DNA of 64,000 bases from Nitrospira sp. CG24A (GTDB lineage: Bacteria > Nitrospirota > Nitrospiria > Nitrospirales > Nitrospiraceae), in contig NEWT02000037.1 of the NCBI GenBank assembly GCA_002869925.2, positions 241,231 through 305,230 on the forward strand, in the 5' to 3' direction. A program made the position numbers and the translations under genes. The notes under the pieces were generated by a model, which had not been told where the DNA came from, did not search any database, and saw nothing but the letters and a program-made list of their open reading frames with translations. Position 1 is the stretch's first letter. The number at the start of each line of letters is the position of its first letter. Positions 13,711 through 62,060 of this stretch are shown piece by piece.

Positions 13711-13788
13711 GCCTGCATAGTTCAGAGTCGAAACGCTGCCCGTGCCGTCTTTTCCTGCGTACATCTTCTCAATTCCCATTACATTTTC

Positions 13789-13882
13789 AAGGGTAGCCTG
13801 GTCGATCCTCGATTGCGCGCGTCGAACGAGCACATTCTTATCGTGCGCGTTCCGCGAGCAGGAGGACGGCCAGGCTACCCTT
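13789..13882. repeat. Repeat element B1 (constant core, paired arms)
   Basis: Arms AAGGGTAGCCTGG (13789-13801) and CCAGGCTACCCTT (13870-13882) are exact complements. The core between them carries the GCGCGCGTCGAACGAGCACA and TCGTGCGCGTTCCGCGAGCA stretches shared with four other places in the window. Relative to the other copies it is in the reverse orientation. It lies between a response regulator gene and the convergent ntrX-like gene. Confidence 0.85.
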
Positions 13883-13945
13883 CCCATCCTTCTTAGGGCG
13901 CGCGTTCCGGGAGCACAGGGCCAACGTGAGTGTCATTCCATCTCC

Positions 13946-18380: not shown

Positions 18381-18607
18381 GCAGGATGCTGAAAAATGGG
18401 CGGGATAGCCTGGCCGTCCTCCTGCTCGCGGAACGCGCACGATCAGAATGTGCTCGTTCGACGCGCGCAATCGAGGATCGACCAGACTACCCTTGAAAGT
18501 GAAAGAGAGGATTGGGAAGCCGCGCGCAGTTGGGATCGTCCCAGCCACCCCTTAATAGAGTGATAGTGCGCTGCGGCCTTGCTGGACGGACCTTTTGAGC
18601 ATCCTGC
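18381..18607. repeat. Composite repeat A1 with element B2 nested inside
   Basis: The outer ends GCAGGATGCTGAAAAA and CTTTTGAGCATCCTGC belong to family A. In place of the usual middle, 18402-18492 holds a family B element (arms GGGATAGCCTGG and CCAGACTACCC around the constant core), followed by a Gly/Pro-like stretch with GCGCGCAGTTGGGATC. The same composite recurs at 55870-56137. It lies between the divergent DUF1844 and mazG genes. Confidence 0.85.
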
Positions 18608-18752
18608 GAGGCGTTCTTCTATTGTGCGATACGTGCGGGCAAGTGATTTTCCAGCGTGCCACAATAGTTTTCCCACAGCCAGCTAGCCGATTGAAGCCTG
18701 TCGAGAACCAGGTATAATGCACGGCTCAATCTGTGTGACCACGAGGGAAGCA

Positions 18753-19634
18753 ATGTCGGAACGATTTCATACATTGGTCGAATTGATGGCCGCGTTACGC
18801 GCGCCGGACGGCTGTCCCTGGGACCGCAAGCAAACACATGACTCATTGAAGCCCTATCTGCTCGAAGAAACCTATGAGGTGCTAGAAATTCTGGACCGGG
18901 AGGATCGGACGAAACTGCCGGAAGAGCTGGGTGATGTGCTGCTGCAAGTGCTCTTTCATAGCCAGATCGCCTCGGAGGAGGGTCGCTTTACCATTGAGGA
19001 TGTGTTGGAACAACTGGCCGACAAACTGATTCGACGGCATCCCCACGTATTTGAACAGGGGGCGTCAGATCTGACCCCCAAGAATGCAGATCAAGTGGTC
19101 GCGCGGTGGGAAGAGATTAAACGGACGGAGCGCCAGGCTTCTGGACGACCGGACTCGGTGCTCGACGGTGTGCCGCAGACCTTGCCGGCTCTTCTGAGAG
19201 CCTATCAACTTCAAGCCCGTGCGTCGCGCGTCGGTTTCGATTGGACCCACGATGCAAAAGGCTTCGATCAGGTCCTTGGCAAGATTGAAGAAGAAATCCA
19301 GGAACTTCGTGTCGCGATCCGAGCCCCTGCGTCGAATCCGACAGAGCCAGACGCCGGCGCTGCAACGGCCCGGCAGGCGCAGATTGTCGCAGAATTCGGC
19401 GACGTGCTGTTTTCGCTTGTCAACCTTGCCCGCTTTATCAAGGTGAATCCGGAAGACGCGCTGCGCCAATCCGCCAATCGATTCGGCAAACGATTTCAAT
19501 TCATCGAAGCCGAGGCGGCCTCATCCGGCCGCGCGGTTGGAGACCTCTCATTCGATGAAATGAATCGACTGTGGGACCAAGCCAAGAAGCAGAATTCTGC
19601 CATCGTCACCGAGGAACCTCGTCATGAGCGATGA
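18753..19634 (+). CDS. mazG: Nucleoside triphosphate pyrophosphohydrolase MazG
   Basis: 293-residue two-domain MazG that hydrolyses NTPs to NMPs and pyrophosphate. The N-terminal domain has CPWDRKQTHDSL, EETYE at 38-42 and EELGDVLLQVLFH at about 57-69, which carry the metal-binding acidic residues. A second MazG repeat is seen in the C-terminal part (GKIEEEIQEL and EFGDVLFSLVNLARF). The ATG at 18753 has a purine-rich GAGGGAAG just upstream and gives the usual start. An ATG at 18717 is in frame but less likely. It overlaps the next gene by 11 bp. Confidence 0.93.
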   Translation: MSERFHTLVELMAALRAPDGCPWDRKQTHDSLKPYLLEETYEVLEILDREDRTKLPEELGDVLLQVLFHSQIASEEGRFTIEDVLEQLADKLIRRHPHVFEQGASDLTPKNADQVVARWEEIKRTERQASGRPDSVLDGVPQTLPALLRAYQLQARASRVGFDWTHDAKGFDQVLGKIEEEIQELRVAIRAPASNPTEPDAGAATARQAQIVAEFGDVLFSLVNLARFIKVNPEDALRQSANRFGKRFQFIEAEAASSGRAVGDLSFDEMNRLWDQAKKQNSAIVTEEPRHER

Positions 19635-20241
19635 GCCCAATCCCTACCAGGAAGGCAAGCGCGCAGGAATTCACCCCCTCATCGTGGTGTTCGTTGTGTT
19701 GATCGGGCTCTGGTTATTTGTGTTTCTCATTGTGCCCAGCTCGAAGAACAAGCAAGCCACCGGGACGGAGGGGCCAGCCGGACCAATCACCGAAGATCCT
19801 GAAGCGGCGGCGCTACTTTTCAAAGTCCAGGCCGTCGTCTCAGACATGAATGCCATCAGCCTGTCGGTTCCTCCGGAAGCAACCGATAGCCAAGTCGCCG
19901 GACTCTTGAAGCGGTTTAAAAGTGATCGGCTTGCCGGCACCTTGGTCGATCTCCTGCCCCCGACAACGCCTGGCCACAAACTAGGGGACCACGCCGTTGC
20001 GGACATCTACATCGTGTCCGATGTCCAGTACGCGCAGGCTGAGGTCATTCGCACCCTGACCCGCGGCGCGCATGCGCCAGGCAACCTCTACCCCCAGGCC
20101 GTTCCCTTCGAAACGGCGATGGAAGCCATCCGCGGACACTACCGAATCGATCTCAACGACACCGGCAATCCCGACAGTGCCTCTCTCGGTTTTTCCGATG
20201 AGTCGGGGGTGCATTCGCGTCAGTATCGAAAAATCTTTTAG
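19624..20241 (+). CDS. Single-pass membrane protein of unknown function
   Basis: 205 residues with a short cytoplasmic N-terminus, one transmembrane helix (IVVFVVLIGLWLFVFLIV, about residues 20-37) and an extracytoplasmic domain. I do not recognise the domain. The start overlaps the mazG stop by 11 bp, so translation is probably coupled. The stop codon TAG shares its G with the first base of repeat A2. Confidence 0.72.
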   Translation: MSDEPNPYQEGKRAGIHPLIVVFVVLIGLWLFVFLIVPSSKNKQATGTEGPAGPITEDPEAAALLFKVQAVVSDMNAISLSVPPEATDSQVAGLLKRFKSDRLAGTLVDLLPPTTPGHKLGDHAVADIYIVSDVQYAQAEVIRTLTRGAHAPGNLYPQAVPFETAMEAIRGHYRIDLNDTGNPDSASLGFSDESGVHSRQYRKIF

Positions 20242-20367
20242 CAGGCTGCCCCAAAAGGCCGCCAGCGGCGTTCTCCCCTCGAAAGCATCCTCAACGTAGC
20301 CCAGGGGCTACGCTTCCGGTGCTTCCATCGGCTGCGGCCTTGCTGACGGCCTTTTTGAGCAGCCTGC
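20241..20367. repeat. Repeat element A2 at a stop codon
   Basis: Runs from the G of the preceding TAG to AGCCTGC. The outer ends are complementary. An inner hairpin GTAGCCC...GGGCTAC lies in the middle, and CTTTTTGAGCAGCCTGC closes the right side. It may serve as terminator for the mazG pair. Confidence 0.85.
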
Positions 20368-22113: not shown

Positions 22114-22168
22114 GACAATCTCCAGTAGGTTGCGAAACACTCAATTTACACGCAAACACCGTATGCCC

Positions 22169-22296
22169 GCAGGATGCTCAAAAAGTCCGTTCAGCAAGGC
22201 CGCAGCCGATGAAAGCACCGGAGGCGTAGCCTCTGGGCTACGTTGAGGATGCTTTCGAGGTGAGAACGCCGCTGGCGGACTTTTTCAGCATCCTGC
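22169..22296. repeat. Repeat element A3 at the hemG stop codon
   Basis: Reverse-orientation copy of family A. Its CAGGATGCTGAAAAAG end touches the TAG of hemG on the minus strand, sharing one base with it. The other end (GCAGGATGCTCAAAAAG on the plus strand) points away. Confidence 0.88.
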
Positions 22297-23744
22297 TAGG
22301 CTCGCTCGCCAGACAGATAGCGTACAACCCGTTCGGCTGCAAGCGCTCCGTCACGGATACAGTCAGGAATCCCAACGCCTCGATAGCCGGCGCCGGTGAG
22401 AACCAACCCCCCATATCGACTGAGTGCCGCCTCGATCTGGTTCAGCCTATCGAGATGTCCGAGCGTATACTGCGGCATCGCTTTCATCCAACGATTCACT
22501 TCGACATATCCGGGCTCCGCCGTCACGCCACATATGCTGGCCAATTCTTCCCTGACCCGCGCTACCAGGGCTTTGTCATCTAATTGTAGAATGGCTTCTC
22601 GCCCCACCCCGCCGACGTAACAACGCACCAACAGTTGATCCGGGGGAGCGCGGTGCGGCCATTTGAGCGATGTCCATGTTGCGGCAATGAGATCGCGCCC
22701 TTCAGCGCGCGGGACGATAAACCCGAAGCCCTCGGCCACGCCTGACACCGCTGCACGTGGATAGGCCATGGCGATGGTGGCCGTCGAAGCATAGGGAATG
22801 AGTTCCAACAATCCACCGGCGATGGGCGTGAGCGGGCGGACCAGCTCCGCCGACACATAGGCGGGGGTGGCCAGTACAAGACTGTCTACGGACAGGGCCG
22901 AGCCGTCATGAAGAATGACATCGTACCTCCAGCGACCAAGCTGATGGGATCGTACGCGTAATGCATCGACGGTGCAGTGTCCCTTGAGCGTGACGCCTTG
23001 TTCTGTCAATCGGCGGACGAGAGCGGCAACCAGGTCCGACAGCCCGTTCTTCAAACTGATGAACATCGTACGCTTCGGACCAGAGTGTGAGGTGGGGGGG
23101 GCCTCCTTCCGGGACGCCATCATGCCCCGAATCACGCTGCCGTATTGCTGCTCCAGCTCCACAAACCTCGGGAAGGTCGCCTGCACGCTCATCTGCTCCG
23201 CGTTTCCGGCATAGATGCCGGCCATTAAGGGCTCTAGCATTCGGTCGAACGCCTGCCGACCCACGCGCCGCCGGAAGAATGAAGCCAACGATTCATCCTC
23301 TCGCGACCGTTTCACCGGCACGGCCAAGTCCATCCCCATTCGCGCAAGTCCTGTCCAACTCAACAGACCGCTTCGGAGAAAAGGACCGAGCTGATTGGGG
23401 GTAATGACGACGAGTCCCTCTGGCAGTTCATGCAGGCGTCCGCGCGAGTAGACAGAGGCTCTCTTACTGGTCTCGTTGGTGTTGATGAGCTGATCGGTCA
23501 GCCCTAGTTTAGCGCAGAGTTCGATGCCGGCTGATTTCTGGGACAGAAAGGAATCGGGTCCCGCCTCCGTAACAAGATCGCCGACTCGATGGGTGACAAT
23601 CTTACCTCCCCATTCGGGAGCGGCGTCGATTACCGTGCAGTGGATCGGGATGCCGGCAGCAGCAGCCCTTTCTTGCAGCGCAAAGGCAGTTGAGAGACCG
23701 GAGATCCCTCCACCGATGACGGCGACTGTGCGGAGACTGTTCAC
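22296..23744 (-). CDS. hemG: Protoporphyrinogen oxidase
   Basis: 482-residue oxygen-dependent, FAD-binding oxidase (HemY/HemG family) that converts protoporphyrinogen IX or coproporphyrinogen III. The dinucleotide-binding motif VAVIGGGISGLSTAF is at the N-terminus, the segment GPDSFLSQKSAGIELCAKLGL is typical, and the C-terminus has LTGAGYRGVGIPDCIRDGALAAE, the FAD-closing motif. It follows hemE on the same strand with 99 bp between. A hemH, often placed between them, is not in the window. The family also includes coproporphyrin-specific enzymes, so the substrate is not settled. Confidence 0.93.
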   Translation of the reverse strand: MNSLRTVAVIGGGISGLSTAFALQERAAAAGIPIHCTVIDAAPEWGGKIVTHRVGDLVTEAGPDSFLSQKSAGIELCAKLGLTDQLINTNETSKRASVYSRGRLHELPEGLVVITPNQLGPFLRSGLLSWTGLARMGMDLAVPVKRSREDESLASFFRRRVGRQAFDRMLEPLMAGIYAGNAEQMSVQATFPRFVELEQQYGSVIRGMMASRKEAPPTSHSGPKRTMFISLKNGLSDLVAALVRRLTEQGVTLKGHCTVDALRVRSHQLGRWRYDVILHDGSALSVDSLVLATPAYVSAELVRPLTPIAGGLLELIPYASTATIAMAYPRAAVSGVAEGFGFIVPRAEGRDLIAATWTSLKWPHRAPPDQLLVRCYVGGVGREAILQLDDKALVARVREELASICGVTAEPGYVEVNRWMKAMPQYTLGHLDRLNQIEAALSRYGGLVLTGAGYRGVGIPDCIRDGALAAERVVRYLSGERA

Positions 23745-25424: not shown

Positions 25425-26264
25425 ATGGAACCATCACAACCTACAGAAGCAGGTGTGACCCCTGCCGTGGCAGACACGGTGACCGATGCCTTGACCGATC
25501 AGGTGGCGGCAGAGTTCACAGGAGAACAGCCGGTACCGGTTGAGTCAACAGCGGAATCGACCGAGCAAGTCGTCCTTGAAGAAGAGAAGGTCAAGGACGA
25601 GATCGAGATCCAGATCGATCTGCTCAAGGATTCTGACTGGGTGGTCCGTCGCGAGGCCGCCATCACGCTCGGGGAAATGGGCGATGAGCGTTGTGTGGAG
25701 CCGCTGGGTCTGGCGTTACGCGACGGCGACTGGCAAGTCCGGGAAGTGGCAATCGAGGGATTGGGGCAGATCGGCTCTCCAGCCGTCGAACTGTTGGTCA
25801 AGTTGCTTCGCGATTGGGACGTGCGGAAGTATGCGATTGCCGCCTTAGGGAAGATTCGCGACGAGCGTGTGCTGGACCCGCTCATGCTGCAGCTGCGGAA
25901 CGACGAATTTAAAGATGATGCGCTCAACGCGTTGGTTGACCTGGGCCAACCGGCGTTGCCGCGATTGGTCGCCGCGTTGAAAGACAAAGATGAGAATGTT
26001 CGGAAGCAAGCGGTGTTGGCCTTAGGGCGGATCAAACATGCTGAGGCGATCGACCCGCTGATCGACATGCTCGCCGACAGCGATTGGTTTACCCGCTTGA
26101 CCTCTGCGGCGGCACTTGAGGCGATCGGCGATGACCGGGGCCGCGAGGCGATTAAGCCGTTGATGAAGGATCCGGACATGGTCGTTCGGATGCGGGTGGA
26201 ACGGATTCTTGCCAAGTGGAAGAAACAACCCACCACCACAGAGGCCGTGAAAAGTAAGATGTGA
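25425..26264 (+). CDS. HEAT-repeat protein
   Basis: 279 residues. An acidic, Thr/Val/Glu-rich N-terminus of about 60 residues is followed by six or so HEAT repeats of roughly 31 residues. Typical strands are [37 protein letters not shown] and [18 protein letters not shown]. This is the PBS-lyase/HEAT type, which acts as a protein-binding scaffold. No catalytic residues are seen. The TGA stop is part of the first GTGAAA unit of array C1. Confidence 0.85.
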
Positions 26265-26326
26265 AAGGTGAAACGTGAACTGTCCGGAGCCCTCCTCCGA
26301 AACCTTTCACTTTTCACCTTTCACGT
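26261..26326. repeat. GTGAAA/TTTCAC inverted array C1
   Basis: Units GTGAAAGGTGAAACGTGAA on the left face TTTCACTTTTCACCTTTCAC on the right around a 30-base spacer. It lies between two convergent genes and includes the stop of the first, so it probably also works as a terminator. Confidence 0.8.
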
Positions 26327-26789: not shown

Positions 26790-28193
26790 TTATCTCTTTG
26801 GCTGACGCACTTTGGGGACGGGTGTGGAATGGCGGAGTTGTTGGAGTAGACTTCCTGCTGCAGCAAGTCTGACGGCGATATCCGAGTCTTGCAAGGCTAT
26901 TTTGAGTAACGGCAGCACTGGAGCGCCGGTTGCACCTAGAGCCTTCGCTGCAAAAAGACGTGGTTGAGGCTGTTTGTCTTGCAGAAGGGCTTGCAAGATT
27001 GTTACGGCTTCTTTGTCAGCGGTTGCCCCCAGTGCATGGGCGGCCGCTGTTCGGATCGAGGGGTCCGGGTGTTTGGCCAAGTCTGCGACGAGCGCAATGG
27101 CCGATGTATCGCCCAACCTCAGCAATCCCTCTACCGCGCTGGCCCGTACCTGCATGCTGGCATCGCGCGTGAGCGCCTGCAGTAACGGGTGATTCTCTCG
27201 AATACCCAGCCGTCCGAGACTCTGGGCTGCAACGGCACGCACGCGCGCAATTTCGTCTCCGAGCGCATGGGTGAGCGGAGCCACACCACCGGCTTGTCCA
27301 TAGTCTCCCAAGGCGCCGGCGGCGAACGCGCGAACCGATGGTTCCGGATCGTACACGCCTTGGCTCAGGACCGACAGACTCGACGGGCGTTTCAACCGCC
27401 CTAAGACTCCCAAGGCTGCCATGCGGACATCGGGTTCGGGAAGTGTCGCTGCTCCGGTAATGTCGGTCAGCATGTCTTGTTTGCCGAGTCTGTACAGTGC
27501 CGCAGAGGCGAAGATGCCCTCTGGCCCGTCGTCTCTTCTTGCGACTTCGATGAGGTAGGGCATGATGTCGGTGACGTTGGCTTCACTGAGCGCGTTCATG
27601 GCAGCAATTCGCACAGGTGGCGTGGCATCGCTCAGCGCGCGTCGCAAAGGGCCAGACTTCCCCGCGAGTCCGGCTTTACCGATGGCGTCCGCGGCACGAG
27701 CCCGTACGAGGACCGACGCATCGAGGAGGCCATCTTCCAGGACGGCCTGTATGTCTGAGAGGCCGAGTTCCGCCAGGATCGTATAGGCCTCGATCCGCAC
27801 ATGTTCTTGCGGATCACGGACATGGCTGGTGAGAAAGCTGAGTGCCAAGGGGCCTAGCAGGGCCGGATCGTCCGGCTGACCCGTAGGAATAAGCCGCTGA
27901 TAGAGCGTAAAGGCTTCTTCTGGCCGCCCCAGCTTGAGTGCGCTCTGGAAGGCGAGGCGGATAAGCGGCTTGGATGCTGTGGTTTCTGGAGGAATCGAAT
28001 ACCAGAGTTGTAAGACGTGGTCGTATTCGGCGCGGTTGAATGCGGCTGTGGCCTCCTGTTCGAGAGCTGAGCCGGTCGGCGCCGTTGGTGCGGCTGCCAT
28101 AGCCGGTGGCAGGGTGACGACGATCGCTCCGAGGATGAGCAGTAGGAGGAGCAGCAGACGTGTGGTGGTGTCGCGACGAGCTCTCTCACACAC
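26790..28193 (-). CDS. Exported HEAT-repeat protein
   Basis: 467 residues from the GTG at 28193. The signal peptide has RARR, a leucine run and IVVTLPPAMAAAP. A helical N-terminal part (TPR-like, about 40-110) precedes at least ten HEAT repeats such as DPEPSVRAFAAGALGDYG and DASMQVRASAVEGLLRLG. The reading frame is open to an ATG at 28328, but that would overlap glgP and translate the repeat array C2 into an unlikely N-terminus, so the later GTG is preferred. The start is uncertain. It is probably a periplasmic scaffold, encoded with the coiled-coil membrane protein downstream. Confidence 0.8.
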   Translation of the reverse strand: MCERARRDTTTRLLLLLLLILGAIVVTLPPAMAAAPTAPTGSALEQEATAAFNRAEYDHVLQLWYSIPPETTASKPLIRLAFQSALKLGRPEEAFTLYQRLIPTGQPDDPALLGPLALSFLTSHVRDPQEHVRIEAYTILAELGLSDIQAVLEDGLLDASVLVRARAADAIGKAGLAGKSGPLRRALSDATPPVRIAAMNALSEANVTDIMPYLIEVARRDDGPEGIFASAALYRLGKQDMLTDITGAATLPEPDVRMAALGVLGRLKRPSSLSVLSQGVYDPEPSVRAFAAGALGDYGQAGGVAPLTHALGDEIARVRAVAAQSLGRLGIRENHPLLQALTRDASMQVRASAVEGLLRLGDTSAIALVADLAKHPDPSIRTAAAHALGATADKEAVTILQALLQDKQPQPRLFAAKALGATGAPVLPLLKIALQDSDIAVRLAAAGSLLQQLRHSTPVPKVRQPKR

Positions 28194-28280
28194 GTGAAAG
28201 GTGAAACGTGAAAGGTGAAATGTATAACGACTGCGTCCATTCCCGCTGTCACGTTTCACGTCTAACGTTTCACGTCTCAC
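28193..28280. repeat. GTGAAA/TTTCAC inverted array C2
   Basis: Left units (GTGAAAGGTGAAACGTGAAA and so on) and right units (TCACGTTTCACG, ACGTTTCACGTCTCACG) can pair across a short spacer. It lies between glgP and the HEAT gene downstream and abuts the GTG start of the latter. Confidence 0.8.
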
Positions 28281-31433: not shown

Positions 31434-31446
31434 AGAGTTCTCCTAT

Positions 31447-31568
31447 CAGGATGCTGAAAAAGACCGCCAGCATCGTTCTCGCATCGTTCAGAGGCTCAAC
31501 GTACCGAAGCGTACGCCTCGCCTCCTCGCTCGCTGCGGCCTTGCGGAACGGCCATTTTGAGCATCCTG
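31447..31568. repeat. Repeat element A4
   Basis: CAGGATGCTGAAAAAGACCG on the left and GGCCATTTTGAGCATCCTG on the right, with the inner ACGTACCGAAGCGTACG segment. It lies upstream of the minus-strand hypothetical gene and not at a stop codon. Confidence 0.85.
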
Positions 31569-31748
31569 AAGCGATTGGAACATCAGCGCCATTCTGGAAA
31601 ATCCCACGGTGCTTTGGTAAATGCACCGAGTTTTTCCGGCGTATGTTGGTTCGTCCGGGATTATAACGGAGATGCGCTCGGCGATCAAAGAAACAGTTTC
31701 ATCAATTGCTTGTCGGGATGGCACCTCGCAGGTACGATTGCAATAAGC
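31569..31748. other. Spacer between two A elements, no recognised gene
   Basis: About 180 bases between A4 and the truncated A5. A short minus-strand frame (from about 31730) reads PSRQAIDETVSLIAERIS but runs straight into A4 and matches nothing I know. It may be the remnant of a displaced gene. This is where the N-terminal half of purL should be. Confidence 0.4.
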
Positions 31749-31827
31749 GGAATACTGAAAAAGACCGCCAGCATCGTTCTCGCCTCGAAAGCATCCTCAA
31801 CGTAGCCCAGAGGCTACGCCTCCGGTG
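31749..31827. repeat. Truncated repeat element A5 at the purL break
   Basis: Matches the left half of family A (GGAATACTGAAAAAGACCG to GTAGCCCAGAGGCTACGCC and TCCGGTG) and then stops. The right half is missing and purL coding sequence follows at once. The GTG used as the first possible start of the purL fragment (31825) is made of element bases. Confidence 0.8.
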
Positions 31828-33051
31828 GGGCGAGTTACGGGCGATGGAATTCTCAGGGTGAAAGATCAGGGCCAGGTGGTGGCAGAGATTCCGGCGAAGT
31901 CGCTGGCCGATGATGGCCCACGCTACGAGCGGCCCTACTCGCCGCCGGGTTATCAGGACATGCTGACCAACTTGAACTACGATGCGCTACCCGATGTGAA
32001 GGATGCGAGTGCGGCGCTGTTGTCCCTGTTGGAGTCGCCAACCATTGCGAGCAAGCGCTGGGTCTATGAGCAGTACGACCATATGGTGCGGACTAACACG
32101 ATGGTCCGGCCAGGTTCCGATGCTGCGGTGGTTCGGATCAAGGGGACGAATAAAGCCCTTGCGATGACGGTGGATTGTAATAGCCGCTATTGCCTGCTGC
32201 ATCCGTATGAAGGGGCTCGTCTTGCTGTGGCCGAGGCGGCGAGGAATCTGATCTGCTCCGGTGCAGAGCCGATCGGGCTGACGGACTGCTTGAACTTCGG
32301 CAACCCTGAGCGTCCTGAAATCATGTGGCAGTTTGTCTTAGCGATCGAGGGGATGAAAGATGCCTGTGAGTATTTCAAGATTCCCATCGTCAGCGGTAAC
32401 GTAAGTTTCTACAATGAGACGAACGGTCTCTCGATTTATCCCACTCCGATGTTGGGGATGGTCGGGCTGATCGATTCGGCTGATAAGACGATGACGCAGT
32501 GGTTCAAGCAGGACGGCGACGTGATTCTGCTCTTAGGTAAGACGAAAGAAGACCTAGGTGGTAGCGAGTACCTGAAAGTGCACCACCATCGAGAACAGGG
32601 ATCACCACCGTTTCTGAGTGTAGAGGCAGAGAAGGTGCTCCATAATTTTATACTGAAAGTAGTACATGATGGATCTGTGCAATCAGCGCATGATTGCTCG
32701 GATGGTGGGCTCTCTATTGCGTTGGCTGAATGTTGTATTTCTGCCCCGGACACTAGGCGAGGGGCTGTGGTAAAGTTGACTCTCGATACCTTGCGGCTGG
32801 ATGCCCTCCTGTTCGGCGAAAGCCAATCGCGGGTCATTCTTTCGGTAAAGCCAGGGATGGTGGACAGGGTATTAAATAGTGCTTGGGACTCAGGTATTCC
32901 AGCGATGAAAATTGGGACCGTGGGCGGAGACCGTTTCGTTATTGATGTGGAGGAGGGGCAATGGAGCGAAGGTTGCCATATCGATCTCCCTATCGGTCAA
33001 CTGTACGACCGGTGGGCCTTTTCGATTGAACGCACGCTGAGCCAAACGTAA
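31825..33051 (+). pseudogene. purL: PurL, C-terminal half only
   Basis: The frame encodes 408 residues matching the second half of phosphoribosylformylglycinamidine synthase II (usual length about 740). It starts at DGILRVKDQGQVVAEIPAKS, which lies in the middle of the family, and continues with QYDHMVRTNTMVRPGSDAAV, TVDCNSRYC, NLICSGAEPIGLTDCLNFGNP, SGNVSFYNE and AHDCSDGGLS. The first ATP/FGAR-binding AIRS half is absent, and element A5 sits exactly at the break. Without the N-terminal half the enzyme cannot be active on its own. Either a deletion between repeats occurred and purL is supplied elsewhere, or the assembly was joined wrongly at the repeat. purF follows directly. Confidence 0.88.
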
Positions 33052-33146
33052 AACGTGAGACGTCAAAAGTGAAACGTGAAACCATAAATAAGAAAACTGC
33101 GAAAGAACTTCCCATCGTTTCACCGTTCACCGTTCACCTTTCACAT
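33044..33146. repeat. GTGAAA/TTTCAC inverted array C4 covering the purF start
   Basis: Left AAACGTGAGACGTCAAAAGT and GAAACGTGAAACC, right CGTTTCACCGTTCACCGTTC and ACCTTTCACAT. It overlaps the last codons of the purL fragment and the first 26 codons of purF. Confidence 0.8.
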
Positions 33147-34556
33147 AAGAGCCCAGACAAGTTCCACGACGAGTGTGCCGTCTTCGGCATATACGGCCAT
33201 AAGGAAGCGGCAAACCTCACCTATCTTGGGTTGTATGCCCTACAGCATCGCGGGCAAGAAGCCTCCGGTATCGTTTCGGGCGATGGCTCACAGTTTTACG
33301 TTCATAAGGGGAAGGGGCTTGTTGCGGATATTTATAATCCCCAGGCGCTCGATCAATTAATCGGTTCAATGGCGATCGGTCACAATCGTTACTCCACCGC
33401 CGGAGGGAACGATCTGAAGAACGTCCAGCCGTTCTCGGTCAACTTTGCGTTCGGAAATCTGGCGCTCGCTCATAATGGCAATCTCATCAATGCTCAAGTG
33501 TTGCGTCATGAGCTTGAAGCGTACGGCGCTATCTTTCAATCCACCTCAGACAGCGAAGTCGTCATCCATCTGATCGCTCATTCGCGGGCCGATACGTTAT
33601 TGGCACGCATCATCGATGCGTTGAGCCAAGTCCGAGGGGCATTTTCGATTGTTTTACAGACAGATGATGGGATCATTGCAGTTCGTGACCCCCATGGGTT
33701 CCGGCCCCTCTGTCTCGGCCGGTTGGGCGACACCTACTTGGTAGCCTCAGAAACTTGCGCCTTCGATCTGCTCGGTGCCGAAGTGGTGCGTGAAATCGAG
33801 CCAGGGGAGTTGGTTCTACTGAATGACAAGGGTGTGACGAGTTATAAGCCGTTTGCTCCGGTCAATCCCGCTATGTGTGTGTTCGAGTATGTCTACTTTT
33901 CGAGACCGGACAGCAAGATCTTCGGCGCCAACGCGGTGTATGGCACGCGCAAGGCCTTGGGTCGGCAACTAGCGAAGGAATCGTCGGTGCCGGCGGATAT
34001 CGTCATTCCTGTACCGGACTCTGGGGTGCCTGCTTCGCTTGGCTATGCCGAAGGAGCGGGGATTCCATTTGAACTTGGGCTGATTCGAAATCACTATGTC
34101 GGCCGCACCTTCATTGAACCGGAACAATCGATCCGCCACTTTGGCGTAAAAGTGAAGCTCAATGCTGTGCCTGAGGTGTTGGAGGGAAAGCGTGTTGTCG
34201 TAGTCGATGATTCGCTAGTGCGGGGTACGACGAGCCGTAAAATTGTGAAGATGCTTCGTAATGCCGGAGCCAAAGAAGTGCATATGCGCATCAGTTCGCC
34301 GCCGATTATCTCACCCTGTTTCTACGGCATCGATACGCCTACCAAGAAGGAACTTATCGCTTCCAACCACACGACCGAAGAGATTAGGAAGTACATCACG
34401 GCTGATAGCCTTGCCTACTTGAGTCTCGATGGCATGCTGAACGCCTCTCCTGGTAGACCTGACCAGTATTGCAACGCCTGCTTTACGGAACGCTACCCCA
34501 TCCCCTTGACTCGCGCTGAGGAGTGGCAGCTTGGCCTCTTCGAACCATCCGTCTAG
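33069..34556 (+). CDS. purF: Amidophosphoribosyltransferase PurF
   Basis: 495-residue first enzyme of purine synthesis, forming phosphoribosylamine from PRPP and glutamine. The N-terminal nucleophile is C36 in the segment [19 protein letters not shown], so a propeptide of 35 residues must be cleaved. The glutaminase part has [11 protein letters not shown] and AHNGNLIN, and the PRTase part has [21 protein letters not shown]. The C-terminus includes the cysteines that bind an iron-sulfur cluster in the long PurF type ([15 protein letters not shown]). No ATG, GTG or TTG occurs in frame between the GTG at 33069 and C36, so the start codon lies in repeat array C4. The TAG stop joins element A6. 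Confidence 0.95.
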
Positions 34557-34682
34557 CAGGCTGCTGAAAAAGTCCGCCAGCTTCGTTCTCAGCTCGCAAG
34601 AATCCTCAACGTACCCCTGAGGGTACGCCTGCGGTTCTTGCTCCGCCTGCGGCCTCGCTGGACTAACTTTTTGAGCAGCCTG
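34556..34682. repeat. Repeat element A6 at the purF stop codon
   Basis: Begins with the G of the purF TAG (GCAGGCTGCTGAAAAAGTCC) and ends with CTTTTTGAGCAGCCTG. The centre has GTACCCCTGAGGGTAC. It is a strong A-tract/T-tract hairpin in terminator position. Confidence 0.88.
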
Positions 34683-34865
34683 TTTCCATTCTCGCCATCT
34701 CATTGTGACTCACTCGGGTACTGTGGCGACTGAGAGGGGTTGTGCTGCCATTGCCCCTGAAAAAAACTGCATGGTAGGATAGCGCGTCAGGAAGTGCTAA
34801 GTGATGAGTATTGAGCTGGATTGATAGGTTCTTCACTCAGGACTTTTTAAGCAATAGAGACTGCG

Positions 34866-50321: not shown

Positions 50322-50684
50322 ATGGCATTGTCCGGTCATGTGGTGGGCTTGCTCAAAGAATACATGCGGGACTTGGTCGAACAGGCGAAGCAGGACGCGG
50401 CAACTCATGCCTCTTTTGGTTTTGCCACTACGCCCTATGGGTCGGATCAGGCGCTGTCCGATTTATTGGCGCTACTAGACGATCGTATCGAATCTGAAGG
50501 GATGCAAGTTGGATTGCCGGACGGGTTTCTCCATCAAATGTGGGGGCTGTGTAACGATGCCCGCACCCAGGTGGCAGAACGTGTGTGGATGGAAATCAAC
50601 AGCAGTGACCAGGCACCGTCGAAGGATACAGTTCGAGAATTGACGTATCGTGCGTTGATTGCCGTTCTCGAAACCTCAGACTAG
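50322..50684 (+). CDS. Hypothetical protein
   Basis: 120 residues from the ATG at 50322 with AAAGGAG upstream. Mostly helical, acidic, with two tryptophans (MWGLCND, VWMEINSS). An in-frame start further upstream (50166) lies inside the divergent gene and is rejected. No family recognised. The TAG stop shares its G with repeat A7. Confidence 0.7.
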   Translation: MALSGHVVGLLKEYMRDLVEQAKQDAATHASFGFATTPYGSDQALSDLLALLDDRIESEGMQVGLPDGFLHQMWGLCNDARTQVAERVWMEINSSDQAPSKDTVRELTYRALIAVLETSD

Positions 50685-50810
50685 CAGGATGCTGAAAAAA
50701 TCCGCCAGCGGCGTTCTCAGTCGCTCGTCTCCCTGCAACGTACCCCAAGGGTACGCTTCGGTCGCCGAACTCCCTGCGGCCTTGCTGGACGGACTTTTTG
50801 AGCATCCTGC
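50684..50810. repeat. Repeat element A7 at a stop codon
   Basis: GCAGGATGCTGAAAAAATCC at the left touches the preceding TAG. The centre holds GTACCCCAAGGGTAC. The right end GGACTTTTTGAGCATCCTGC closes the hairpin. It separates two convergent genes. Confidence 0.9.
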
Positions 50811-52202: not shown

Positions 52203-52275
52203 GTTGAGGCAAAACTATGTTGGTACGTGGGGAACTACACGGCTTGTAAGTTTTGGACAAGAGGAAAGCATTGTT

Positions 52276-52400
52276 GCAGGCTGCTCAAAAAGGTCGTCCA
52301 GCAAGGCCAAGGCGAGTTGAAACCGGAGGCGTACCCTTCTGGGGTACGTTGAGGATTTCAATGAGCTGAGAACGCCGCTGGCGGCATTTTTCAGCAGCCG
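52276..52400. repeat. Repeat element A8 after a minus-strand stop
   Basis: Reverse-orientation family A copy. Its CTGCTGAAAAATGCCGCC end (minus strand) begins one base after the TAA of the metallopeptidase gene. Confidence 0.87.
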
Positions 52401-52401
52401 A

Positions 52402-52650
52402 TTAGGTTTTGGCTTTGCCGTTGTCTAAGTGCCGATGCTGCCAGTCGAGCCAGGCATGGCCAAGTTCATGGGCTAGGATGTAGCGTCGCCTGGTCATGGG
52501 CAAGCGCTTACGAAGATAAATAGTTTTTGTGTCGTCGTCCCAGATACCATCAGCATTCGGGTCCCGACGGTCCATGTCGGTATCTGACAGCTGACGCACT
52601 GAGATCCGGTACCCGAAAGGGAGGATGACTCGAGAGGGCATGCGTAACAT
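52402..52650 (-). CDS. Short ImmA/IrrE-like metallopeptidase
   Basis: 82 residues from the ATG at 52650, with AGGAG eight bases upstream. The HExxH motif is in RRRYILAHELGHAWLDWQHRH, with a Trp/His-rich end. ImmA/IrrE proteases are usually longer and cleave repressors. The short size and lack of a clear third ligand make the protease activity uncertain. The stop adjoins A8. Confidence 0.6.
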   Translation of the reverse strand: MLRMPSRVILPFGYRISVRQLSDTDMDRRDPNADGIWDDDTKTIYLRKRLPMTRRRYILAHELGHAWLDWQHRHLDNGKAKT

Positions 52651-52956: not shown

Positions 52957-53124
52957 TTCACCAGCCTACGCAGGAAGCCACAGCTGCCCGTTCTCCGCAG
53001 TAGACGGCTACGGAGGGTGGATACAGCTGTGGAGGAATGCGCAGCGGGTGTCCTCGGAAGCCTTGGCGAAGGAGGACCCGCTTCCAGCCTTCGTAGCCTT
53101 GTCGGCTACTACGGCGGAGTAGGC
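52957..53124. repeat. Repeat element E1
   Basis: Begins TTCACCAGCCTACGCAGGAA and ends CCAGCCTTCGTAGCCTTGTC. It matches 61941-62060 (E2) in order, with about 36 extra bases between two CAGCTG sites. Inner hairpin arms are visible around CGAAGCCTTGGCGAAGG-type sequence. It lies upstream of the saccharopine-dehydrogenase-like gene. Confidence 0.8.
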
Positions 53125-53254
53125 TCGGCGGGTTCCGCCGAATATACAAAAGGGACCACGGCTGTAAAGCCTGGGGCTCCACGAGGTACAATTATCTATT
53201 GTCTAGCCGCATCCTGCCAGGACAGGAGTATAATAATGGCACAAGAGGCCTGCC

Positions 53255-54343
53255 ATGCACCGTGTACTCGTCTTGGGAGCTGGAAAGATCGGATCTTTGG
53301 TTGCCTGCCTCTTAGCAGAGAGCGGCGACTACGAGGTCTGTCTCGGTGACATCAGCCTCGATGCCTCCAAGCGGCTTGTCGAGGACCTTGGTCTCTCGCG
53401 AGTCACGCCCCTGCTCCTTGATGTCCGACATCCCGACACCATCAGCGCATATGTGAAGGCGCATCGATTCGATGCGGTCCTATCGAGCCTCCCGTACTTC
53501 TGCAACCCCGTTGTCGCCGGATTGGCTCGGGAACACCGGCTTCATTATTTTGACCTGACGGAGGATGTTGAAGTCACCAATCAGGTCAAAGTCCTGAGTG
53601 CCGATTCGCCTCAAGCTTTTGTGCCGCAATGTGGTTTGGCTCCTGGGTTCATCAGTATCGCAGCGCACGATTTGATCACCCATTTCGATACAGTGGATAC
53701 GGTCAAAATGCGAGTCGGTGCCTTGCCGGTTCATCCGAGTAATGCCCTCAAGTATTCACTGACGTGGTCCACCGATGGGTTAATCAACGAGTACGGTAAC
53801 ATCTGTTACGGAATTGAAGGGGGAGAGAAAGTGCCTCTCCTACCCCTCGAAGGGTATGAGACGATCGAGGTGGATGGACTTTTGTACGAAGCGTTCAACA
53901 CGTCAGGCGGATTGGGGACGTTGGCAGATACCTATGCGGGGGAAGTCCGGACCATGAACTACAAGACGCTGCGGTATCCTGGCCATTGCGAGAAAATTCA
54001 CCTCTTGATGAACGATCTCAAGTTAAATGAGGACCGTGAGACACTCAAGCGAATCCTGGAACGGGCAGTTCCCCAAACACTGCAGGATGTCGTGCTGATC
54101 TATACCTCCGTCATGGGAATGCGGGGGGGCGCCTTGTTCGAAGAGAACTACGTAAAGAAGATCTATCCTCAATGTGTGAAAGGGAAGCTGTGGTCTGCCA
54201 TTCAAATGACGACCGCCTCGAGCCTCTGCGCCGTGGCTGACCTCGTGCTTGCGGCGCCGAACCAGTACAAGGGATTCGTGACCCAGGAGTCGTTTCCGTT
54301 ACAAGACGTCCTAAAGAATCGGTTTGGAGCCTGTTACCGATGA
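53255..54343 (+). CDS. Saccharopine dehydrogenase-like protein
   Basis: 362 residues. The NAD(P)-binding start [20 protein letters not shown] is followed by the saccharopine dehydrogenase pattern ([48 protein letters not shown]). It probably oxidises saccharopine or a related lysine-derived imine. The next gene, overlapping by 4 bp (ATGA), is an ALDH7-type semialdehyde dehydrogenase, the natural next step. GAGG precedes the ATG. Confidence 0.85.
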
Positions 54344-55869
54344 TGCCCATCGCGGGAATTCTCAAGGGACTGGGCTTGAGCGCCATCAACAGCGGTGGCA
54401 GTACCGGGACCCATTGGTGGGCCTCCGGCGAGAACACATCGCTGCTGGAATCCGTGAATCCGGCGACCGGCGAGACGATTGCGCATATTCGCACCTGTTC
54501 AGCTGATGACTATGAGCACATCGCGCGGGAGTCTGCGGTGGCATTCCAGCAATGGCGGCTTGTTCCGGCTCCCAGGCGGGGAGAACTCATCCGGTTGCTT
54601 GGCGCATCGTTGCGGGAACATAAAGATTCGCTTGGTTCGTTGGTGTCGCTCGAAGTCGGCAAGATCAAAGCGGAGGGGGACGGCGAAGTTCAGGAAATGA
54701 TCGATATGGCGGACTTTGCCGTGGGCCAGTCCCGCATGTTGTATGGATCGACGATGCAGTCCGAACGGGCTCAGCATCGGATGGCGGAGCAATGGCATCC
54801 GCTCGGGCCGGTCGGGGTGATTACCGCCTTCAATTTCCCCGTTGCGGTGTGGGCCTGGAATGCGTTCCTGGCTGCAATTGCTGGAGACACGGTGGTCTGG
54901 AAGCCTTCGCCGAAAGCACCGCTCTGTGCGATCGCGGTGCAGCACCTCTGTAACCGCGTGATGGAGCAACAGGGTTATCGGGGAATCTTCTCGCTAATCG
55001 TGACGGCAGAAAAGACCGTCGCTGAGACGTTAGTCCAGGATGGTCGATTGCCGTTGATTTCGTTCACGGGGTCCGTACCGGTCGGTCGAGCAGTGGCCAC
55101 GACTGTTGCGCAACGGTTGGGGCGGACGCTCTTGGAACTGAGCGGGAATAACGCGATTATCGTGGATCAGACGGCGGACCTCTCCTTGGCGATTCGCGCG
55201 ATCGTGTTCGGTGCAGTCGGCACTGCCGGTCAACGTTGCACGACGACCAGACGGCTGTTCGTCCACGAGTCTCGTTACGATGAGGTGGTGACGAAATTAA
55301 TCTCGGCATACAAACAGATCCGCATCGGCGATCCATTGGAGCCGGGCGTGCTCTTGGGTCCGTTGATCGATCGAGCTGCGGTTGAGACCTATCGAAAAGC
55401 GATCGAAGAGGTGAAACAGGCGGGAGGGGCAGTCCTCTACGGGGGGCAGGTGCTGGATCGGCCCGGCTGTTTCGTGGAGCCGACGATTGTGAAAGCGGAA
55501 AATCATTGGCCCATCGTCCAGCGTGAGACGTTTGCGCCGATTCTCTATGTTATGCCCTTCAAGGCACTCGACGACGCCATCGCCTTGCAGAATGCCGTAC
55601 CCCAAGGCCTGTCTTCTGCGATTTTTACGTCCGACGTACGGAGCAGCGAGCGGTTCACCTCCACTGCTGGCAGCGACTGCGGGATCGCCAATGTGAACAT
55701 CGGGACGTCAGGAGCAGAAATCGGCGGCGCTTTTGGCGGTGAAAAGGAAACCGGCGGAGGACGCGAAGCCGGCTCGGATGCATGGAAAGCCTATATGCGG
55801 CGGCAGACGAATACGATCAACTGGGGTCATGATTTGCCATTAGCCCAGGGCATTCAATTCGGCTCCTAA
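54340..55869 (+). CDS. Alpha-aminoadipic semialdehyde dehydrogenase-like ALDH
   Basis: 509-residue aldehyde dehydrogenase of the ALDH7/antiquitin type. The NAD region has [20 protein letters not shown], the catalytic Glu is E266 in LLELSGNNA and the catalytic Cys is C300 in [14 protein letters not shown]. The C-terminus ([31 protein letters not shown]) is typical of ALDH7. The likely reaction is oxidation of alpha-aminoadipate semialdehyde/piperideine-6-carboxylate to aminoadipate. Element A9 begins directly after its TAA. Confidence 0.9.
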
Positions 55870-56137
55870 CCGGATGCTGAAAAAGGAGGGATGGGGTAGC
55901 CTAGCCGTCCTCCTGCTCGCGGAACGCGCACGATAGGAATGTGCTCGTTCGACGCGCGCATTCGAGGATCGACTAGGCTACCCTTGAATAAGAAACGAGG
56001 AATTGGGAAGACGCGCGCAGTTGGGATCATCCCACCCACCCCTTATAGAGTGATAGTTCGCTGCGGCTTGGTACCAGGCGCGTCTTGGCGCGCCAGGGTT
56101 GGGCGAGTGAGACGTCTGGCATTTTTGAGCATCCTGC
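55870..56137. repeat. Composite repeat A9 with element B4 nested inside
   Basis: Outer ends CGGATGCTGAAAAAGGAGG and CATTTTTGAGCATCCTGCG. B4 at 55894-55983 has arms GGGTAGCCTAG and CTAGGCTACCC and the constant core. The following stretch (CGCGCGCAGTTGGGATCATC, ATAGAGTGATAG) is shared with A1. It adjoins the ALDH stop. Confidence 0.87.
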
Positions 56138-56211
56138 GCAGTTTCTCCTGTTATCCTTGATCTGATCTGTGAGTGACCGATGATTCACACTCGCTGGGAA
56201 GGAGCCACACC

Positions 56212-61940: not shown

Positions 61941-62060
61941 TTCACCCGCCTACGCAGGAAGCTACAGCTGTAAAGCTGTGGAGGAATGCACAGCGGGTGT
62001 CCTCCGAAGCCTTGGCGAAGGGGGACACGCTTCCAGCCTTCGTAGCTTTGTCGGGTGCTG
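61941..62060. repeat. Repeat element E2
   Basis: Begins TTCACCCGCCTACGCAGGAA and ends AGCCTTCGTAGCTTTGTCGG. It is the shorter copy of E1 in the same orientation. The inner segment GTGTCC...GGACAC and the outer GCCTACG/CGTAGC pair into a long stem. Confidence 0.8.

Follow-up and report, generated by a model that had tools for sequence, protein, structure and literature searches.

MITEs related to insertion sequences of the IS5 family are a class of bacterial elements, and insertion by the IS5 family is accompanied by a 4-bp target-site duplication of the form YTAR. BIME/REP elements, like the elements described here, often adjoin stop codons, and ERIC/RU and Correia elements are imperfect palindromes of approximately 100–200 bp that occur in many copies and are MITE-like. 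MITEs and mosaic palindromes (BIMEs) are already known kinds of element. Nitrospira moscoviensis is tabulated among the genomes scanned for REPs in PMC12306157. The window analysed here is a stretch of 64,000 nucleotides from Nitrospira sp. CG24A, the source assembly being a 3.36-Mb draft in 40 contigs, and it carries seven copies of a short hairpin element, A, together with two composites in which A-type ends surround other hairpins. A literature search of limited coverage found no description of the A family, nor any of fixed-site exchange of nested hairpin interiors. The A copies are probably old IS5-type MITEs at fixed sites, with middles that have been overwritten by recombination with other copies.

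Hairpin modules of the elements

The elements have a modular anatomy, with IS5-like terminal repeats, stop-codon junctions and arms that pair within a copy. The ordinary A element, GCAGGMTGCTGAAAAAG ... CTTTTTGAGCAKCCTGC, is an imperfect hairpin of approximately 128 nt, the end stem of which contains a G-G mismatch. On the plus strand of the window, single copies lie directly 3' of the stop codon of ORF 19624–20241 (20239–20367; site S1), 3' of the stop of ORF 33069–34556 (34554–34683), 3' of a further stop codon (50682–50810), at 31444–31569 and, in 3'-truncated form, at 31744–31859; on the minus strand, single copies are found directly 3' of the stop of ORF 22296–23744 (22168–22298; site S2) and at 52275–52404. 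Folded as single-stranded DNA, the S2 copy has a z of −8.0. Some A copies carry a tail of 50–75 nt beyond their right end (R1), and this tail ends in a second inverted left end (R2, GAGTTTTTCCGCAGCCTGCTA), which 11 of the 56 sense copies examined carry in recognisable form; some copies span approximately 200 nt with terminal repeats.

Pairing was assessed in 36 A copies from the source genome. At 11 of the 24 consensus pairs, at least one copy was changed on both sides with pairing kept, and the RNAalifold covariation term was small (−1.2 of −26.5 kcal/mol). The mean longest run between the inner arms was 5.33 within a copy versus 3.81 when arms were dealt between copies (0 of 10,000 deals), a statistic that is inflated because arms are common by descent within one arm type.

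Two further hairpins, B and C, take part in these elements. The stem of B reads GGGTAGCCTGG ... CCAGGCTACCC, and a B hairpin without surrounding A ends is also found at 13779–13892 on the minus strand (90–92% identity; z −6.6 as single-stranded DNA); hairpin C reads GGGGTAGCTGGGACGATCCCC ... GGGATCATCCCAGCCACCCC. The combinations A, A+C, A+C+B and A+B were all seen. Judged by eye, C stands between A ends without B at L025, L027, L028, L029 and L030, as well as at L182 and L183 (Nitrospira sp.), and at L003 the order is A(C(B)), such that the tip of C, itself inside A, holds B. L182 and the source-genome locus L056 have DNA in common at 81–86% identity. B cores had A ends on both sides in 7 of 26 cases, one of which (C33:78267) is a C-type hairpin by eye, and this fraction is biased upwards because the 26 cores were drawn from 30 loci picked with a composite query. 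The single Rfam match at gathering score in the whole window was a tRNA, and the A and B elements matched no known structured RNA.

A fourth recurrent hairpin-rich module (GGCGCGTCTTGGCGCGCC ... GGGCGGGTGAGAAGTCTGGCC) was observed by eye within A ends at 56068–56117 of the window, and also by eye in L142, L182, L224, L230 and L233. Elsewhere in the window, short direct repeats of the CGTGAAAGGTGAAACGTGAA type lie at 26246–26279, 28179–28226 and 33047–33094, and a two-copy repeat (52957–53110 and 61941–62059; 91–93% identity) was matched to neither A nor B.

Two composites in the window

The first-pass annotation described two composites, at 18381–18607 and 55870–56137, as family-A ends around a B hairpin and a shared stretch, and both places were found to be built in this way. 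A-type left ends (GGATGCTGAAAAA) lie at 18384 and 55872, and A-type right ends (TTTTGAGCATCCTGC) at 18593–18607 and 56123–56137; with up to two mismatches, these left and right motifs gave 19 and 13 matches over the whole window versus 1.6 and 0.15 expected, numbers that were reached by no shuffle. Composite 1 (18381–18607, plus strand) consists of the A left end, the B hairpin (about 18403–18493), a spacer, the 3' arm of C (CGCGCGCAGTTGGGATCGTCCCAGCCACCCC), a linker with ATAGAGTGATAG and the A right end R1, and is followed by a 3' tail (18608–18686, plus strand), at the end of which an inverted left end in degenerate form (AATAGTTTTCCCACAGCCAGCTAG) was seen by eye. Composite 2 (55868–56139, plus strand) lies directly 3' of the stop codon of ORF 54340–55869 and has approximately 50 extra nt before its right A end, a module that also occurs in other loci. 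The fold of composite 1 as single-stranded DNA has a z of −4.2, with 0 of 200 shuffles equally stable, and that of composite 2 a z of −3.1, with 2 of 200 equally stable.

The two composites are 88% identical between 18402–18554 and 55893–56045, and the shared stretches CGCGCGCAGTTGGGATC and ATAGAGTGATAG are found in the composites. The shared stretch is the 3' (right) arm of the third hairpin, C, the left arm of which is absent from both window composites, as is the interior of an ordinary A. The description of a full B inside A therefore holds for the A ends and the B hairpin, but the loss of the A interior and the involvement of a third module mean that this is not a complete B within a complete A. 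The annotation had also suggested that B inserted into A before spreading; a single insertion of this kind was rejected, since C lies between the A ends, with B optional, at L003, L025, L027, L028, L029 and L030. Furthermore, the 1-kb flanks of the two composites gave no mutual blastn match at E ≤ 0.01 and are thus unrelated, which rules out a segmental duplication.

The comparison of eight composites covered B together with the right C arm. Composites 1 and 2 were 90.5% identical to each other, whereas composite 1 was 96.0% identical to the composite at S1 of G047, and composite 2 was closest, among the seven others, to the nested A(C(B)) element of G000:C11 (L003; G000 is the source genome), with 96.6% identity. 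A match of 96.7% with the G044 composite at 31744 spans just 91 nt. The lower mutual identity indicates two lineages and not sister copies; judged by these values, the window composites are members of different composite lineages, neither copied from the other.

Terminal repeats and insertion targets

An intact insertion sequence with TAGCAGGCTGCGGAAAAAC repeats, flanked by CTAG on both sides, was found at L234 in G015, one of the 30 loci listed with an R2-type end. Its product is a 366-aa transposase with the Pfam domains DUF772 and DDE_Tnp_1, and scored 280.6 bits against the IS5-family model NF033581 (NCBIfam), for which the cut-off is 140. G008 encodes an 86% homologue with the same ends; beyond G015 and G008, no relative of this transposase above 51% identity was found in 32 genomes at E ≤ 1e-30, and the closest relative in the source genome reached 39% and has different ends. 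The left end and R2 of A resemble the repeats of the insertion sequences in L234/L246 and L247, the A left end differing from the insertion-sequence end by one or two bases (GCTGAAAAA versus GCGGAAAAA). As a 21-mer with at most one mismatch, the R2-type end was present in 28 of 32 genomes of the genus, while a reversed-pattern control was present in 0. The window elements, at approximately 115–272 nt measured to R1, are too short for a transposase gene, and none is present inside them. By its ends, A looks like a MITE-like element with termini as in an IS5-family insertion sequence.

Two other elements were observed during this comparison. At 1320–2703 of L249 (source genome, C22) lies an IS5/IS1182-like element that terminates in TAGCAGNNTGTTGACAAA, divergently related to the ends of A. 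The other, at 1501–1640 of L236, is 140 nt long; it lacks the A hairpin, has two ends of the R2 type and is flanked by CTAG on either side.

Of 36 A copies, 15 have YTAR as the 4-mer at their left flank, versus 0.33% of nearby positions. In addition, 22 of the 36 source-genome copies start 0–4 nt 3' of a sense-frame stop (frame of at least 100 codons), versus 3 of 36 with an opposite-strand stop of this kind at the other A end. Since TAG and TAA stops supply much of YTAR, the YTAR excess and the stop-codon junctions overlap as evidence, and a target containing TAG would itself cause A copies to fall at stop codons. Identical 4-bp flanks around the left end and R2 were seen in 2 of 11 copies (TTAA and CTAC), both in L032 with R2 well kept; when flanks were dealt at random, 70 of 2000 trials reached at least this number, and the support for a target duplication around A is therefore weak and suggestive only.

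Another origin considered for A was a REP/BIME relative, a hairpin element mobilised as single-stranded DNA by a Y1 (RAYT/IS200-type) transposase. The hairpins with compensatory changes, the position near stops, the mosaic modules, the apparent absence of a duplication at 18381 and three Y1_Tnp matches in the source genome would all be consistent with such an element. However, Y1_Tnp (PF01797) is absent from 13 of 32 genomes of the genus, including 7 of 19 good ones, such as G001, which is 99% complete and has at least 84 A matches; a Y1 transposase is thus not needed for the upkeep of A. The Y1 genes of the source genome (L089, L090 and L091) are not flanked by A or B, the best blastn match of A, B or composite 1 to these loci being 16 nt at E 0.037. 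With these absences and the IS5-type ends, Y1 transposition was rejected and is very unlikely. Near the intact RAYT-like Y1 gene (263–934 of L090) and the broken one (L091), another repeat was seen by eye, with GGGGTCGGGAGTC and of AAAAGGGGTCGGGAGTCTTTT-like type, and this is perhaps the REP of those Y1 genes themselves.

Copies across relatives

The A model matched all 41 of 41 genomes in a sample of relatives, with 48 to at least 84 matches per genome in 25 congeneric genomes (source genome included) and 1–80 in the other 16; the palindromic A may match on both strands, which affects these counts. Copy numbers from the DNA searches, which took the best 40 candidates in the source genome and the best nine in each other genome, are lower bounds, and the density of seven A copies and two composites per 64 kb would correspond to a few hundred copies per genome. 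Among the matches listed, those that reach from B to the beginning of the right arm of A occupy no fewer than 26 places besides the query, in at least 10 genomes (source genome included), although one of these places, in G041, has 73% identity and may be C-type.

Interiors at orthologous sites

At orthologous sites, the interiors of the elements differ and their junctions are kept. Site S1 was recovered from 27 genomes of the genus and typed in 24, the source genome included; G011 and G042 (contig ends) and G014 were dropped, the last because its contig ends after 88 nt, although it is A type 2 as far as readable. An A-like left end stands at the S1 junction in all 24 typed genomes, followed by many different interiors: A arm types 1–4 in 7, 4, 2 and 2 genomes, respectively, A+B in three, another hairpin in two, an inverted A in three, and one other. 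On a tree of the 24 species built on the single 618-nt adjacent gene, the interior states required 15 changes versus 15.8 ± 0.97 when shuffled (15 or fewer in 70 of 200 shuffles), indicating that phylogenetic signal is not detectable in the S1 interior type, and the A+B state required three changes on the same tree. A right stem of GCAGCC type, by contrast, was carried by 17 of the 21 S1 copies in which the stem could be read, versus 8 of 36 source-genome copies (p 2e-5). The 17 were counted by eye, with two inverted copies among the 21, an unreadable right stem in G008, G016 and G041, and the S1 copy of the source genome in both sets. On these counts, the S1 end stem tends to stay site-specific whatever the interior.

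Of 20 genomes from which S2 was recovered, four contain A and G046 contains another hairpin; G044 carries A+B at the same base, the G042 sequence ends, and 13 are without an element. At 55870, an A-type interior in G019 and another interior in G005 follow the same stop codon, while an element is missing from 20 other loci and a further locus is unanchored. At 18381, both the element and its 3' tail are missing in G047, where a clear duplication is absent (by eye).

Selection of the elements as RNA structures, such as a 3' end or terminator of the preceding gene, with interiors varying under a pairing constraint, would account for the stop-codon junction, the sense orientation, the pairing of the arms and the A-like left end at S1 in every typed genome. 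This explanation is improbable, however: the position of the junction is already expected from a TAG-containing target, most S2 and 55870 loci (13 of 20 and 20 of 23, respectively, two of the latter having an element) do without one, and the interiors are swapped for other modules, beyond point mutation.

A site-by-site comparison was made with G044, in which the flanks are about 85–95% identical to those of the window. Over nine window A sites, G044 has an element at six, none at 55870 and a tail-like remnant at 50684, and does not cover 34556. The interiors differ at six of the six sites with an element in both genomes, and three of these are swaps between A and A+B; at 18381, A+B in the window corresponds to A in G044, and at 31744, the truncated A of the window corresponds to A+B. 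The arm types differ at 20240 and 52276, and at 31446 the arms of the G044 element are of the same type as in the window, with an extra insert in the central loop. G007 shares the A arm type of the window at three of four comparable sites (20240, 22297 and 31446, N-interrupted) and differs at 52276, so exchange is not uniformly fast; the element at 34554 is absent from G007, and at 50682 both G044 and G007 have an apparent R2 tail end alone beside the stop (by eye). As a separate observation, G007:C46 is 97% identical to window positions 53180–55853 and elsewhere mostly 86–95%, a difference that may reflect recombination between species.

The congeneric genomes compared are all draft assemblies, and some elements contain N runs (L130, L165), so the differences between interiors could have been produced as assembly chimeras among many short repeats. 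Nevertheless, the left switch to a foreign interior occurs across approximately 10 shared bases (TGCTGAAAAA), presumably below the usual assembly words, and identical classes of interior are found again in separate assemblies; chimeras are therefore a highly improbable source of the pattern.

The first-pass annotation had further proposed that A carrying B moves or is copied as a unit, in which case A and A+B at one site would be the products of successive insertions. The arrangement does recur, since among the matches listed the A left end continues through B to the A right arm at 15 or more places in at least eight genomes (source genome included, query excluded), and the IS5-type ends and the 4-bp flank identity of some A copies would be consistent with mobility. 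However, A and A+B share their junction at three G000/G044 sites, and the S1 end stem is mostly one type regardless of interior, such that a mobile composite would need repeated insertion at one base. Where middles differ between relatives at a shared A-end junction, movement of the whole unit is not needed. Among the few sites compared, no fresh composite was found that had a clean target duplication and for which the corresponding site of a relative was empty. Recurrence of the arrangement is thus retained, and mobility of the composite as a whole is unlikely.

Proposed exchange of middles at fixed sites

The preferred reading remains overwriting of the middles of old MITEs. In this model, A would be a non-autonomous, hairpin-forming MITE, kin to an IS5-family insertion sequence, which in the past integrated into targets resembling CTAG/YTAR, in many cases a TAG stop codon, and which would at first have been moved by an IS5-type transposase. 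The copies would now mostly remain at fixed sites, and recombination with other copies, by gene conversion or template switching, may overwrite their interiors with alternative modules, namely A arm types, C, or a B-bearing C. Middles would be exchanged via short shared blocks, TGCTGAAAAA on the left and GCTGCGGCCTTGCTGG on the right, and gene conversion would suffice for this, as would hairpin strands that anneal at replication forks. The two window composites would then be separate outcomes, from two composite lineages. No interior donor was identified among the copies compared, and we infer conversion from the pattern.

A more far-reaching proposal is that stop-codon slots across the genus serve as docking sites, and that the hairpin middle is a cassette exchanged via a specific single-strand process and not by ordinary transposition. 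Nested hairpins would in that case insert into hairpin tips, by template switching or annealing at hairpins. This proposal is tentative and doubtful. With interiors that differ between related species, and ends and flanks that are constant, these sites are a natural data set that could serve to measure how fast, and by which route, bacteria exchange DNA through short homologies. Moreover, a transposon target containing TAG may place many hairpins at the 3' ends of genes, with possible effects on transcript ends.

Comparison with known systems

By description, A is like ERIC/RU and Correia elements in being an imperfect palindrome of approximately 100–200 bp with many copies and MITE-like character, and we know of no fixed-site interior swapping for ERIC/RU or Correia elements. 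BIMEs and REPs with RAYT transposases are the subject of PMC2817692 and PMC3733652. Mosaic palindromic modules and high copy number are common to A and such elements. A differs from them in that the Y1 transposase is missing from 13 of the 32 A-bearing genomes of the genus, in its inverted-repeat ends of insertion-sequence type, and in modules that nest at hairpin tips. The likeness to IS5-related bacterial MITEs includes short length, lack of coding capacity, IS5-like terminal inverted repeats and a CTAG/YTAR-like left flank; unlike them, A forms a strong hairpin internally, contains an additional inverted copy of its end (R1) and varies in its interior from species to species at one site.
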